Made by a program: the position numbers and the translations under genes. A stretch of 64,000 nt of DNA from Parvibaculaceae bacterium Mf 1.05b.01 (GTDB lineage: Bacteria; Pseudomonadota; Alphaproteobacteria; Parvibaculales; Parvibaculaceae): NCBI GenBank assembly GCA_000509225.1, contig BAOK01000002.1, positions 852,501 to 916,500 of the forward strand. The letters are read 5' to 3'. This document shows, one piece after another, positions 388 to 22,688 of this stretch. Positions within the stretch are counted from its first letter, which is position 1. Every line of letters begins with the position of its first letter. The notes beneath the pieces are model-generated. The model had not been told where the DNA came from and did not search any database. It saw only the letters and a list, made by a program, of their open reading frames with translations.

Positions 388-3173
<2,786 letters not shown>

Positions 3174-3283
3174 TCTCGGGCTAGCGCGAGCTGGCCCATT
3201 TGGATGGCGGTGAGTGAATGTGGTTCAGATCAGAAAAAGATTGTCGTTACTTCAGAATTTCTGAAGGTTTTTGCCTTTTGCCG

Positions 3284-3399
3284 ACCTGGTGGTTATTGCG
3301 AGGGGCCTGCACCCGATCCCATCTCGAACTCGGCCGTGAAAACCCTCAGCGCCGATGGTACTGCATCTTAAGGTGTGGGAGAGTAGGTCGCTGCCAGGT
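3284..3399 (+). rRNA. rrf: 5S ribosomal RNA
   Basis: A region of about 116 bases starts and ends with complementary acceptor arms (acctggtg and tgccaggt). It contains the conserved 5S core with cccgatcccatctcgaactc in loop B/C and the gatggtactgc segment of helix IV. It lies about 125 bases after 23S, as usual. No tRNA-fMet follows it, although many alphaproteobacterial rrn operons end that way; the initiator tRNA lies alone at 28427. Confidence 0.95.
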
Positions 3400-16663: not shown

Positions 16664-16984
16664 TTGGTCCAGGTTACTTATATCGAGCATGATGGGACGA
16701 CCCATGAAGTGGACGCGACGGAAGGTCATTCCTTGATGGAAGTCGCGATTGAAAAGATGATCCCAGGAATTGACGGGGATTGCGGCGGGGCTTGCGCCTG
16801 CGCGACGTGTCATGTTTTCGTTGATGAGGCCTGGCTCGCCAAGACCGGTGAGAAAGACGATATGGAAACCAGCATGCTGGAGTTTGCAGAGGGTATTGAA
16901 GCGAATAGTCGCCTTGCTTGCCAGATCAAAGCCTCTGCTAAGCTTGACGGCATCGTCGTCCGTTTGCCTGAATCACAACATTGA
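16664..16984 (+). CDS. 2Fe-2S ferredoxin, P450 redox partner
   Basis: The protein has 106 residues and is an adrenodoxin-like ferredoxin. Cluster ligands are Cys40, Cys46, Cys49 ([12 protein letters not shown]) and Cys86 (SRLACQI). It should pass electrons from a ferredoxin reductase to the P450s that follow. The start is TTG 16664, supported by GGGAGGGG upstream; no ATG fits. The stop lies 23 bases before the first P450 ATG, so the two are co-transcribed. No ferredoxin reductase gene is in the window. Confidence 0.92.
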
Positions 16985-17007
16985 CGTTTGTTCTGGAGGA
17001 GACCGTT

Positions 17008-18258
17008 ATGAGCCAAGCTGCCGTAAAAACAGAAGAGAGTGTTATCCCCGATCCTTATTCCATATCTCTTGAGGAGATTGATATGGGGAAAGCTGCGCTC
17101 TATCCGGCGCAGGCGCATTGGGCCTATTTCGAACGGCTTCGGAAGGAAGACCCAGTTCATTTTTGTGAGTCAGAAGAATTCGGACCCTATTGGTCGATCA
17201 CCAAGTTCAACGACATTGTTCATGTGGACACGCACCATAAGCAGTTCTCATCCGAACCGCAGATTGTGATTGGGGATGCTGTCGATTTTCAGCCGCCCAT
17301 GTTCATTGCCATGGACCAGCCCAAGCATGATGTGCAGCGCAAGGTTGTAACCCCCGCCGTGTCACCTGTGCAGCTTTCCGAAGTTGAACCGATGATCCGC
17401 AAGCGGGTTGGTGATCTCTTGGACAGCTTGCCTGTTGGCGAGACGTTTGACTGGGTGGACCGTGTGTCGATTGAGCTGACCACACAGATGCTTGCAACCC
17501 TGTTTGATTTCCCGTTCGAAGAGCGCAGGAAACTCACCTATTGGTCTGACATTTCCGCGTCTGGCCCGCAGGTGGGCGACGATTCCATGACGGAGGAGTT
17601 TCGTCTGCAGGAACTGACGAAATGTCTGGAAGAATTCAACGCTCTTTGGCAGGAGCGGAAAGCACAGCCGCGCAAGAATGACTTTATCTCATTGATGGCG
17701 CATCACCCTGATATGCAGGACATGGATCCGATGGAATATCTCGGAAACCTGATGCTGCTGATCGTGGGCGGCAATGATACGACCCGGAACTCCATGTCGG
17801 GCGGTGTTGTCGCGCTTAACCAAAACCCGGCAGAGTATGACAAGCTGCGGGCCGACCCGTCTTTGATCCCCAATATGGTGTCAGAGATCATTCGCTGGCA
17901 GACGCCGCTTGCCCATATGCGCCGAAATGCGCTTGAAGATGTTGAGCTCGGTGGGAAAACCATCAAGAAGGGCGACAAGGTTGTCATGTGGTACATCTCG
18001 GGTAACCGGGATGATGAAGTGATTGATCGGCCCGATGACTTTATCATCGACCGACCCAAAGCCCGTCACCATGTTTCCTTTGGGTTTGGCATTCACCGCT
18101 GTATGGGCAACCGCCTGGCAGAAATGCAGATCAAGATCCTGTGGGAAGAAATTCTGAAACGCTTCAGCAATGTTGAGCTGGTAGGCGAGCCGGTTCGTGT
18201 GACGTCAAACTTTGTCATGGGCTATTCGCATTTGCCAGTTAGGTTGCACGCGAAATAG
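17008..18258 (+). CDS. cytochrome P450, CYP153 family (copy 1)
   Basis: The protein has 416 residues. CYP153 enzymes hydroxylate the terminal carbon of medium-chain alkanes and fatty acids. Visible motifs are the I-helix oxygen-activation [11 protein letters not shown] from residue 252, ExxR in EIIRW, and the haem loop [10 protein letters not shown] with Cys365. [13 protein letters not shown] is characteristic of CYP153. ATG 17008 is chosen because CTGGAGGAG precedes it. It is transcribed with the ferredoxin and ended by a strong terminator. Of the three copies this one diverges most in the region after the first 130 residues. Confidence 0.94.
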
Positions 18259-18321
18259 TTCCAAAGAATCCCCAGCCGGACAGCGTATCGGTCCGGTTTT
18301 GCGCCTTCCCAGAAGGGCGCT

Positions 18322-18354
18322 ACCGCCGCTCATCCCCCATGAGCGGCGGTTTTT
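18322..18354 (+). terminator. terminator after CYP153 copy 1
   Basis: A perfect 12-bp stem (18322-18333 with 18339-18350) with a 5-base loop is followed by a T-run. It separates copy 1 from copy 2. Confidence 0.92.
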
Positions 18355-18402
18355 CTATGCCCAACCGATTGACCTTGCGGAAAACGCCCCAATATGGAAA
18401 GT

Positions 18403-18416
18403 TGACGCTACCGTCA
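18403..18416. promoter_or_regulatory. TGACG-N4-CGTCA operator before CYP153 copy 2
   Basis: An inverted repeat with 5-bp arms lies 42 bases before the ATG. The 17 bases ending at its left arm match those before copy 3 at all but one position, pointing to a shared regulator. TTGACG could also be a -35 element. Confidence 0.65.
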
Positions 18417-18458
18417 TTTTGGCCCCACCTGTTGCGGGGCCTGGTCTTTGGAGGAACC

Positions 18459-19736
18459 ATGTCGCAATCGGCCGTGCTTGATCGTGAAGCCACAGATTTT
18501 GATCCCAATTCCATTCCGCTCGAGAAGCTGGATATGGCGAACGGGGACTATTATCAGAACCAACAACACTGGGCGCTGTTTGATCGCCTGCGCAAAGAGG
18601 ACCCTGTCCACTTCTGCGACAGCGAAATTATCGGCCGATATTGGTCGATCACACGCTACGAAGACATTGTTGCGGTGGATACTAACCACAAGCAGTTCTC
18701 TTCTGAACCTTCGATCTTTCTGACCACATTGGAAAATGAGCTGCGGTCTGAGGAAAACAACTTTAATCCTGAAACCTTCATCGCGATGGACCAGCCTAAG
18801 CATGATGTGCAGCGCAAAGCGGTAACACCTGCTGTGGCGCCGCCGGCTCTTGCGGAGCTGGAGCCGCTCATCCGGGAGCGTGTGGGTAAAGTTCTCGACA
18901 GCCTGCCTGTCGGGGAGACGTTCAACTGGGTCGAGAAAGTTTCCATTGAAATCACCACGCAGATGCTTGCTACGCTTTTCGATTTCCCGTTCGAGGACCG
19001 CCGGAAGCTGACCTATTGGTCTGACATTACAACCGCTGACCCGGTAACCCTTGAGGAATACGGCCTTACCGAAGATGAGCGCCGGGAACACCTTCTGGAG
19101 TGCTTGAAAACGTTTGGTCAGCTCTATGCAGAGCGGGCAGAATTGCCGCCAACCAATGATTTCATCTCCCTCATGGCACACAATCCAGCCATGAAAGACA
19201 TGGACCCGATGAACCTTCTCGGGAACCTCATCCTTCTCATCGTTGGTGGCAATGACACGACCCGGAACTCCATGTCCGGTGGTGTGCTGGCACTCCACAA
19301 TCATCCGGAAGAGTTTGCGAAGCTGAAAGCGGATCCTTCCATCATTCCAAACATGGTCTCTGAGATCATTCGCTGGCAGACACCACTTGCGTACATGCGT
19401 CGGACCGCGCTGGAAGATGTCGAGTTCCGTGGCAAAACCATCAAGAAGGGCGACAAAGTTGCCATGTGGTATGTCTCCGGCAATCGTGACGACAGTGTTA
19501 TTGATCGTCCGAATGAATTCCTGATTGATCGTCCCAAAGCGCGCCAGCACCTGTCCTTCGGGTTTGGCATCCATCGCTGCATGGGCAACCGTGTTGGTGA
19601 GATGCAGGTTCGGATTCTCTGGGAAGAAATTCTGAAGCGTTTCGACCGTGTCGAAGTGGTGGGCGAGCCAAAGCGCCTTCATTCCAGCTTCGTTATGGGC
19701 ATTACCGACCTTCCAGTGGTTGTTCACCCGCTCTAA
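18459..19736 (+). CDS. cytochrome P450, CYP153 family (copy 2)
   Basis: The protein has 425 residues. It carries the same motif set as copy 1: [31 protein letters not shown], and the haem loop [12 protein letters not shown]. It is closest to copy 3: the segment PAVAPPALAELE to FDFPFEDRRKL is almost identical in the two. ATG 18459 follows TTGGAGGAACC; the ORF is open for 40 more codons upstream, but these cover the operator. It forms a single-gene unit with its own operator and terminator. A 437-codon ORF on the opposite strand is a codon-use shadow. Confidence 0.94.
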   Translation: MSQSAVLDREATDFDPNSIPLEKLDMANGDYYQNQQHWALFDRLRKEDPVHFCDSEIIGRYWSITRYEDIVAVDTNHKQFSSEPSIFLTTLENELRSEENNFNPETFIAMDQPKHDVQRKAVTPAVAPPALAELEPLIRERVGKVLDSLPVGETFNWVEKVSIEITTQMLATLFDFPFEDRRKLTYWSDITTADPVTLEEYGLTEDERREHLLECLKTFGQLYAERAELPPTNDFISLMAHNPAMKDMDPMNLLGNLILLIVGGNDTTRNSMSGGVLALHNHPEEFAKLKADPSIIPNMVSEIIRWQTPLAYMRRTALEDVEFRGKTIKKGDKVAMWYVSGNRDDSVIDRPNEFLIDRPKARQHLSFGFGIHRCMGNRVGEMQVRILWEEILKRFDRVEVVGEPKRLHSSFVMGITDLPVVVHPL

Positions 19737-19766
19737 GCGGCCATCTTGAGCGCACTGACTTTTGCC

Positions 19767-19796
19767 AAAAAGGCCCGGAATTTCCGGGCCTTTTTG
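19767..19796 (+). terminator. terminator after CYP153 copy 2
   Basis: A perfect GC-rich stem (aaaaaggcccgg with ccgggccttttt) has a tight loop and is followed by Ts. Confidence 0.92.
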
Positions 19797-19876
19797 CGTT
19801 GTCAGACGCTGTTAAGGCCGATTTGGTAGCATTTACGCTCTCTTGACCCTGTATGAAGAGACCCTATATGTAAAGT

Positions 19877-19890
19877 TGACGCATGCGTCA
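19877..19890. promoter_or_regulatory. tgacgcatgcgtca operator before CYP153 copy 3
   Basis: This perfect 14-bp palindrome lies 49 bases before the ATG. It is the symmetric version of the site before copy 2 (TGACG-N4-CGTCA) and is preceded by the same TATG(t/g)AAAGT. Confidence 0.7.
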
Positions 19891-19939
19891 TTATTGACCT
19901 AATGTGGTCGGAAATCAGCGCTTTCTATTCGGAGGAAAT

Positions 19940-21190
19940 ATGTCCCAGGCTGCCGTAAAAGACGATCAACAGGCGTTCGACCCTTATTCGATCCCCATTG
20001 AGGACCTCGATATTGCGCATCCGGAATACTTTGCCAATCAGCAGCATTGGGCCCTGTTCGAGCGCCTTCGCAAAGAAGATCCGGTTCACAAGGCACACTC
20101 AGAAGAGCTGGGCGATTACTGGTCAGTGACACGCTACCAGGACATCATGCATGTCGACACAAATCATCAGATTTTCTCCTCTGAGCCGACCATTGTATTG
20201 CCTGACCTTGAAGAAGATTTCGCGCCTGAAATGTTCATCGCGATGGATCAGCCAAAGCACGACATCCAACGAAAAGTGGTGTCCCCTGCTGTTGCACCTC
20301 CCGCGCTCGCAGAGCTTGAGGGCCTTATCCGTGAGCGCGTCGGCAAGGTGCTCGACAGTCTGCCAGTGGGCGAGACTTTTAACTGGGTTGATAAGGTCTC
20401 CATCGAGATCACCACGCAGATGCTCGCGACGCTTTTCGACTTCCCGTTTGAAGATCGCCGGAAGCTGACTTTCTGGTCTGACGTTACGACTGCTGGTCCG
20501 GACGGTGGCGACACTGGTTTGGACGAAGATGAGCGCCGGGCTGAGCTGCTTGTCTGTCTTGAAACCTTTTCCAAGCTACTTGCTGAGCGTGCCCAGCAGC
20601 CACCGAAATCAGACTTCATTTCGATGATGGCTCATGATCCACAGATGTCCAAGCAACAACCCTTCGAGCTGCTCGGCAATCTGATGCTGCTAATTGTTGG
20701 CGGCAATGACACAACACGGAACTCCATGTCCGGCGGTGTTTTGGCCCTCAATGAAAACCCAGCCGAATATGCCAAGCTGAAAGCTGACCCTTCTTTGATC
20801 CCCAATATGGTGTCAGAGATTATCCGCTGGCAGACGCCGCTTGCATACATGCGCCGTACTGCGTTGGTGGACACGGAGCTTGGTGGCAAACAGATCAAGA
20901 AGGGCGACAAGCTTGCCATGTGGTACATCTCGGGTAACCGGGATGAGGCCGCGATTGATCGTCCGAATGAATTCCTGATCGATCGTCCGAATGCGCGGAA
21001 GCACCTGTCCTTCGGATTTGGTATTCACCGCTGCATGGGTAACCGTCTTGCTGAAATGCAGATCCGCATCTTGTGGGAAGAAATTCTGAAACGCTTCGAT
21101 AAGGTTGAAGTGGTCGGCAAGGAAACCCGCGCCAAATCAATCTTTGTGCATGGCATTACAGACCTCCCGGTTCGGGTGCATCCTAAGTAA
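19940..21190 (+). CDS. cytochrome P450, CYP153 family (copy 3)
   Basis: The protein has 416 residues, with CYP153 motifs as in the other copies: [16 protein letters not shown], and [17 protein letters not shown] carrying the haem cysteine. ATG 19940 follows CGGAGGAAAT. It has its own operator and terminator. The tandem arrangement and high similarity point to local duplication, with copies 2 and 3 the youngest pair. Different copies may prefer different chain lengths, but this cannot be read from sequence. Confidence 0.94.
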   Translation: MSQAAVKDDQQAFDPYSIPIEDLDIAHPEYFANQQHWALFERLRKEDPVHKAHSEELGDYWSVTRYQDIMHVDTNHQIFSSEPTIVLPDLEEDFAPEMFIAMDQPKHDIQRKVVSPAVAPPALAELEGLIRERVGKVLDSLPVGETFNWVDKVSIEITTQMLATLFDFPFEDRRKLTFWSDVTTAGPDGGDTGLDEDERRAELLVCLETFSKLLAERAQQPPKSDFISMMAHDPQMSKQQPFELLGNLMLLIVGGNDTTRNSMSGGVLALNENPAEYAKLKADPSLIPNMVSEIIRWQTPLAYMRRTALVDTELGGKQIKKGDKLAMWYISGNRDEAAIDRPNEFLIDRPNARKHLSFGFGIHRCMGNRLAEMQIRILWEEILKRFDKVEVVGKETRAKSIFVHGITDLPVRVHPK

Positions 21191-21749: not shown

Positions 21750-21901
21750 ATGTCGGTCCTCCTATGAGGAGGCAGAGTGAGGGATGGTTGCCCGGAATGG
21801 AGGAGCCAGGTTGCGGTATGGGGGGCAAACCACATTTTTTTCAAATTGGGGGTTTACCGATTCCGCCAAATCAGTTCATGCTTGGCATGTTTTCAACCAT
21901 T

Positions 21902-21916
21902 GAAAGGAGGTGATCC
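21902..21916 (+). promoter_or_regulatory. extended Shine-Dalgarno (gaaaggaggtgatcc)
   Basis: These 15 bases are the exact complement of the standard bacterial 16S rRNA 3' end, far longer than a normal SD. They end one base before the ATG of a 26-codon ORF, a spacing of about 5-7 bases from the GGAGG core. Confidence 0.75.
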
Positions 21917-21917
21917 G

Positions 21918-21998
21918 ATGTCCAGTGAGATTTCGTCGCTAGCTCGGAAGAGAAAGTGTGGCCAGGGGAAGATGGAGCAACCTTCACCTACCTCCTAA
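21918..21998 (+). CDS. 26-residue micro-ORF with perfect SD
   Basis: The ORF starts MSSEISSLARKRKCGQGK and ends PSPTS; it is basic, has one cysteine and no membrane segment. I do not recognise it. Translation is suggested only by the 15-base SD. The last codons include acctcct (21990-21996), complementary to aggaggt of the SD (21905-21911), so RNA folding could hide the start. Hairpins follow and the unit ends in a terminator. It may be a leader peptide, a small protein, or part of a regulatory RNA. Confidence 0.5.
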   Translation: MSSEISSLARKRKCGQGKMEQPSPTS

Positions 21999-22052
21999 AA
22001 CGCTAGGCCCCTTCGGGTGGGCCACTCGAGCGAGTTAGCGCGCTCACGTTTA

Positions 22053-22083
22053 GGGATCGTTCTTGAAAAAGAACGATCCCGTT
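22053..22083. terminator. strong hairpin terminator after the micro-ORF
   Basis: A perfect 12-bp stem (gggatcgttctt with aagaacgatccc) with a GAAA loop is followed by a short T-run. It lies 30 bases after the end of the convergent TetR gene and could serve both strands. Confidence 0.85.
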
Positions 22084-22112: not shown

Positions 22113-22688
22113 TCAGCCAGTCAGCTGCTTAATGTGGTCGCGAAGAAGCCTTCGGGCGCGGTCCAGATTTTCTTTTGTGGGATTGACCGCCGCGTGCAGT
22201 CCCACGCCATTGATCAGTCCGATTAGAAGATCAGCTTCCTGCCGTGCATCTGCTATGGGTGCGGCATCCTTGATGAGGTCGGCAAGTTCCTCAGCCCAGG
22301 CCTGATGGCGCGCATCGTTTTCAACGGCGAGGGTTTTGTCGACTGTTGCGGCGCTCCAGAAGGCGATCCAGACCTTCCACTCGCGCAAGCGTTCTTTATC
22401 TGTGGGAAGCATCTCTTCTGCAAACTGTAGGAGCTTTTCCTGATCATCGGTGTTGTTTGCAATCGCTTGGCGGGCGCGGTCACCGGTGACGTCATAGGAT
22501 GTGCGAAGAGAGGCGAGGATGAGCGCTTCCCGATCTGCAAAATAGTGGGTGAGCCTTCCCGTCGTGCACCCTGCTTCTGCCGCGATTTTGCGCATGGTGA
22601 CGCCCTCAAGACCCTCGGCGGCAATGACACGCCAGCTGGCTTCAATCAGCTCCTGTCGGCGGGCTTCGTGATCAACAATTTTTGGCAT
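22113..22688 (-). CDS. TetR family regulator (BetI/AcrR-like)
   Basis: The protein has 191 residues. The N-terminal HTH is VTMRKIAAEAGCTTGRLTHYFADREALI (about 31-58); the rest is the helical ligand-binding domain. It is divergent from the fatty acid hydroxylase gene, with two copies of a 13-base motif between, so it most likely represses that gene in response to a lipid-like ligand. Confidence 0.9.
   Translation of the reverse strand: MPKIVDHEARRQELIEASWRVIAAEGLEGVTMRKIAAEAGCTTGRLTHYFADREALILASLRTSYDVTGDRARQAIANNTDDQEKLLQFAEEMLPTDKERLREWKVWIAFWSAATVDKTLAVENDARHQAWAEELADLIKDAAPIADARQEADLLIGLINGVGLHAAVNPTKENLDRARRLLRDHIKQLTG

Follow-up and report, generated by a model that had tools for sequence, protein, structure and literature searches.

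The element described here lies within a 64,000-nt stretch of the genome of Parvibaculaceae bacterium Mf 1.05b.01 (the window; all coordinates refer to it). The window carries 23S and 5S rRNA genes at its start (408-3399) and, further on, a 2Fe-2S ferredoxin-like gene (16664-16984) followed by three consecutive, very similar cytochrome P450-like genes (16981-21190, + strand), the ferredoxin-like and P450-like genes being named by eye. The element spans positions 21894-22080 (about 190 nt) in the order Shine-Dalgarno (SD) sequence, 26-codon ORF, hairpin and terminator (Table 1), and a convergent TetR-type gene, also named by eye, lies downstream (22113-22688). A preliminary description of this DNA had reported a 15-base perfect anti-16S SD as well as the ORF, hairpin and terminator, and each of them was found. 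A weak but probable promoter precedes the element; in 124 of the 235 elements in which it was sought, the best -10 sequence started 24-28 bases before the SD, its position being conserved and its sequence weak.

Table 1. Features of the element and of its upstream region in the window
Feature	Position	Strand	Remarks
Probable sigma-70-type promoter	21853-21882	+	TTTACC (21853-21858), 18-bp spacer, CATGCT (21877-21882); weak, score 7/12
Conserved TCAAC	21893-21897	+	Probable RNA 5'-end; most lineages carry TCAAC/CAACAA immediately before the SD
RF01867 (CC2171 sRNA) match	21894-22080	+	Model 1-159; 46.2 bits, E=9.6e-9 (e-value mode)
SD, perfect 15-base anti-16S complement	21902-21916	+	gaaaggaggtgatcc; unique in the genome
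26-codon ORF	21918-21998	+	MSSEISSLARKRKCGQGKMEQPSPTS; ATG 21918, TAA 21996-21998; start-stop frame kept in relatives, peptide not
Long-range helix, 5' arm	21924-21946	+	Codons 3-10; duplex of -23.9 kcal/mol with 22030-22048
ACCTCCT	21990-21996	+	Overlaps the stop; shared by the window with its four closest relatives
Middle hairpin	22007-22023	+	ggccccttcgggtgggcc; variable-sequence hairpins between the stop and the 3' arm in clade folds
Long-range helix, 3' arm	22030-22048	+	Directly before the terminator; fold, duplex energy and compensatory changes
Intrinsic terminator stem-loop	22053-22080	+	12-bp perfect stem

The reference for the 15-base complement was the 16S 3'-end of Sinorhizobium meliloti (GGAUCACCUCCUUUC), printed in the oligonucleotide table of PMC6943124, rather than the 16S rRNA of the window genome itself, and the SD gaaaggaggtgatcc is its exact reverse complement. 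The E. coli-type oligonucleotides of that table read CCUUACC instead, and the GAAAGG form of the SD therefore suits alphaproteobacterial ribosomes. Both the 15-mer and its 13-base core occurred only once in the 3.8-Mb genome, and a single spacer base separated the SD from the ATG. Long start-proximal SD pairing that governs initiation, and that is general to many starts, is described in a Staphylococcus aureus study on extended SD sites (PMC13009471); the element is alike in its long start-proximal SD but has a single full-length site per genome.

A blastn search with a 211-base stretch gave matches in 39 of 61 relatives, the alignment with the distant ones being confined to some 31 bases that surround the SD and the start. 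The SD followed by NATGTC was found in at least 119 stretches of named genomes, and among the matches listed the titles were alphaproteobacterial (Sphingomonadales, several families of Hyphomicrobiales, Azospirillum, Hyphomonadaceae, Parvibaculaceae and others). The exact SD with NATG was present in 26/385 genomes of the class. When a sample of 398 genomes of the phylum was searched for the SD with an ATG or GTG start, 65 genomes had it, with one copy each; all 65 belonged to the Alphaproteobacteria and none lay outside this class, and the reversed control gave no match. Six matches came from viral contigs, five of which were Bradyrhizobium-like or Caulobacter-like forms and thus probably host DNA, the other one being an unrelated 71-codon ORF. 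Names such as Rhodobacteraceae-like or Bradyrhizobium-like are inferred labels. Since the elements compared below were collected through the SD and the start, with at least 13/15 matching SD bases as the selection criterion, the conservation of the SD among them (15/15 or 14/15 in nearly all) is partly by construction; they were not chosen by frame length, helix or terminator.

At Rfam gathering thresholds only rRNA and tRNA were detected in the window. The element gave a full-length significant match to RF01867 (E=2.5e-8 genome-wide), whose gathering cut-off is 75 bits; because its 46.2 bits are under this cut-off, we claim membership as homology and not as a match passing the threshold. On this basis the element seems to be a distant relative of Caulobacter CC2171. 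Relatives across the class behaved in the same way as the window, with matches at E<=0.01 in 96/385 genomes and over the cut-off in 13/385. Among the control genomes there were matches in Caulobacter vibrioides and Deinobacterium, and one of them, presumably that of Caulobacter, was over the cut-off. CC2171 shares with the element the order 5' CAAC, SD (GAAAGGAGGUGAUCC), start, helix between early codons and 3' segment, and terminator, the model starting with cAAcaA, which matches the conserved 5' CAAC region; it differs in its GTG start (ATG in the element), in its middle part and in being filed as a non-coding sRNA. Caulobacter-like forms had the same SD followed by GTG TCT CAT, opening a frame of about 20-26 codons. 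No tie of CCNA_R0050/R0051 to CC2171 was established. The match in Mesorhizobium huakuii (MH_s33) was listed in an sRNA study (PMC5596092) whose annotated sRNAs are reported to be backed by RNA-seq. The preliminary description had named lack of conservation in relatives and lack of a transcript as what would speak against its proposal; the unit was conserved across the class, and the family match in M. huakuii has been listed among transcribed sRNAs.

The filing of RF01867 as an sRNA, the RNA-seq-supported set that holds the M. huakuii match (PMC5596092), and the conserved structure and terminator would agree with an ordinary trans-acting sRNA that pairs with mRNAs, its ORF having merely a protective or side role as in dual-function RNAs. 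However, the most conserved part was the SD with the start, which is not a typical antisense seed, and the frame was retained, so we regard an sRNA of this kind as possible but somewhat unlikely.

The frame opened by the start codon was mostly 15-37 codons long in 191 distinct elements, and 56-59 codons long in Azospirillum; all three types of stop codon were in use. In pairs 50-60% identical in the body, drawn from these elements, the exact ORF length was common to 82% of the pairs in frame 0; the corresponding shares for the two other frames were 4% and 9%. The peptides were unrelated between clades, with 18 aa in sphingomonads (MSHGSA...), 23 aa in Phyllobacteriaceae (MSSDF...), 36 aa in Parvibaculaceae (MSNG...) and 14 aa in Bradyrhizobium-like forms. 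No purifying selection on the peptide was detected within the six clades, besides Azospirillum, in which pN/pS could be computed (0.79-1.35), values near 1 being a crude measure in frames of 18-36 codons whose synonymous sites are themselves constrained by structure; variation in the Bradyrhizobium-like forms was too low for this calculation. The start and the stop were thus kept while the peptide changed, suggesting that translation itself, rather than the peptide, is the function. Together, the SD and the retention of the frame point to translation of the ORF. SgrS, SR1 and RNAIII are dual-function RNAs that combine a regulatory fold with a small ORF whose peptide is functional. Like them, the element is a folded RNA with a retained small ORF behind an SD, but its peptide showed no detectable selection (pN/pS about 1).

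The perfect SD, its optimal spacing and the retained frame could also belong to a small-protein gene with the peptide as its product, one of the readings offered in the preliminary description. An EQPS motif near the peptide C-terminus in the window's relatives is consistent with it, as is the Azospirillum-type version: it has 56-59 codons and a stretch resembling a signal peptide, and its pN/pS is lower (about 0.6, from eight sequences, one of which was the unrelated viral-contig 71-codon ORF). However, this reading was weakened because the peptide was without purifying selection in the six other clades, and the peptides were unrelated between clades; we consider it unlikely. The Azospirillum-type ORF (loci L074, L105, L115, L160, L163, L249 and L250) gives the impression that a genuine small protein, exported from the cell, had evolved on the RNA.

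The 221-nt fold had a z of -3.8, and none of 200 shuffles was as stable. In this fold a long-range helix, supported also by duplex energies and compensatory changes, is predicted to pair early codons (about 2-8) with the segment before the terminator. A confident terminator was present in 168/191 elements, its T run in the window being short (cgtttgcgtt). In these 168 elements the 26 bases after the start codon were paired with a 36-base segment whose end lies just within the terminator; the self duplex had a mean of -21.7 kcal/mol, versus -15.1 with the 3'-ends of other clades and -14.6 with shuffled 3'-ends, controls that ignore phylogeny, and all 168 beat their own shuffled mean. The letters of the helix differed between clades: the window has AGUGAG/CUCAC, sphingomonads have CAUGGUUCAGC/GCUGACCAUG and Caulobacter-like forms have CAUUGUC/GACAAUG. 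Two-sided changes were found in 6/18 long-range pairs in the window's own set of eight sequences and in 6/23 in sphingomonads, and the pairs were nearly invariant within the Rhodobacteraceae-, Bradyrhizobium- and Parvibaculum-like clades. When the Caulobacter-like and the Phyllobacterium-like sequences were each folded jointly with RNAalifold, the long helix was missing, probably due to poor alignment.

According to the preliminary description, the ACCTCCT at the end of the ORF could pair with the SD. The motif was indeed present, conserved in the closest relatives and lacking in the remaining three members of the eight-sequence set; its pairing with the SD did not hold up, being no better than chance (22.5% of ORF shuffles paired equally well) and not used in the minimum-energy fold. 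Analogous sequestration was predicted in other clades: the SD core of Rhodobacteraceae-like forms was predicted to be paired (0.99), an anti-SD-like CCACCTCC lying just before their terminator. Within the ORF of Bradyrhizobium-like forms, a TCACCTC was predicted to pair with the SD. The start site would thus be opposed in these clades too, by differing elements. Sequestration by ACCTCCT itself is, in our judgement, highly improbable. The CCACCTCC...CTTTC segment of the Rhodobacteraceae-like forms (L232-L238 and L252-L255), predicted to pair with the SD, resembles the 16S tail.

A genome-unique 15-base complement could in principle act as a decoy or sink for 30S subunits, the SD just tying up ribosomes and the ORF being incidental. 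But a decoy would need neither the start codon, nor the retained stop, nor the early-codon helix, all of which were conserved, and with one gene copy the RNA would have to be extremely abundant, making a decoy decidedly unlikely.

The arrangement, with hairpins and a terminator behind a short ORF, would also suit an attenuator or a leader peptide, the latter being another suggestion of the preliminary description. However, the downstream gene is convergent in the window, and no conserved regulated gene was found directly downstream, either in the window or in other lineages. The neighbours elsewhere were unrelated, including SMC-like ATPase, TlyA-like and ThiC-like proteins by our own reading of the sequences, and carbonic anhydrase and exonuclease III by annotation. 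Because the neighbouring genes differ between lineages, we do not consider this stand-alone unit a leader, a role that now seems scarcely credible.

Sequence comparison thus describes a unit that is conserved, stands alone and occurs in a single copy; it has a perfect SD, a retained frame, an unconstrained peptide, a long-range helix at the early codons and a terminator. The explanation that we favour, tentatively and with a probability of about 0.4, is a stand-alone RNA in which translation from an extreme SD opposes the RNA's own fold, that is, a ribosome-gated regulatory RNA. The unit is probably transcribed and translated in this organism, and ribosome loading would then compete with the helix. 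Ribosomes would load on the SD and, while translating, would have to open the helix between the early codons and the 3' segment, which would close again once they leave or when they are scarce. In this way loading would shift the RNA from a closed to an open form and back; the open form might free the 3' segment, or protect the RNA, for a putative regulatory role, and the RNA would act as a reporter or user of translation capacity. Whether as a switch of a regulatory 3' segment or as a report of ribosome supply, the outcome of such a competition is hypothetical. Two other readings of the preliminary description, a small unit under the control of its own RNA and an RNA that captures ribosomes, fit the data. 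The element might be an ancient RNA of the Alphaproteobacteria that gauges how many ribosomes are available or whether the 16S 3'-end is intact, with translation and not the peptide as the signal; it would be opened only by 30S subunits whose intact tail can form the 15-base duplex. We hold this proposal to be improbable.

By comparison of sequences, an RNA family filed as non-coding in Caulobacter appears to undergo translation across many lineages of the class, with an SD of the greatest possible length and without conservation of the peptide. If so, translating this free-standing RNA is in itself regulatory. Small frames within other "non-coding" RNAs merit similar scrutiny.

Pos19 of Rhodobacter sphaeroides was considered as a homologue and dropped. 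It is a stand-alone 219-nt sRNA with a translated small ORF, whose regulation is independent of translation (PMC5036791). The element is like it in being a stand-alone sRNA with a small ORF, with no homology claimed; unlike the element, Pos19 is reported only in R. sphaeroides, has an RpoE promoter and needs its SD only partly (PMC5036791).

The ORF was not annotated in the two public plasmid records with gene tables that were inspected. In the Azospirillum oryzae record (L249, 1522-1731) an antisense hypothetical protein, possibly a misannotation, is annotated over the element. In Inquilinus limosus, a Whalefall-1 RNA (RF01762) scoring over its cut-off was found about 6 kb from the element (L066, 7753-7804).
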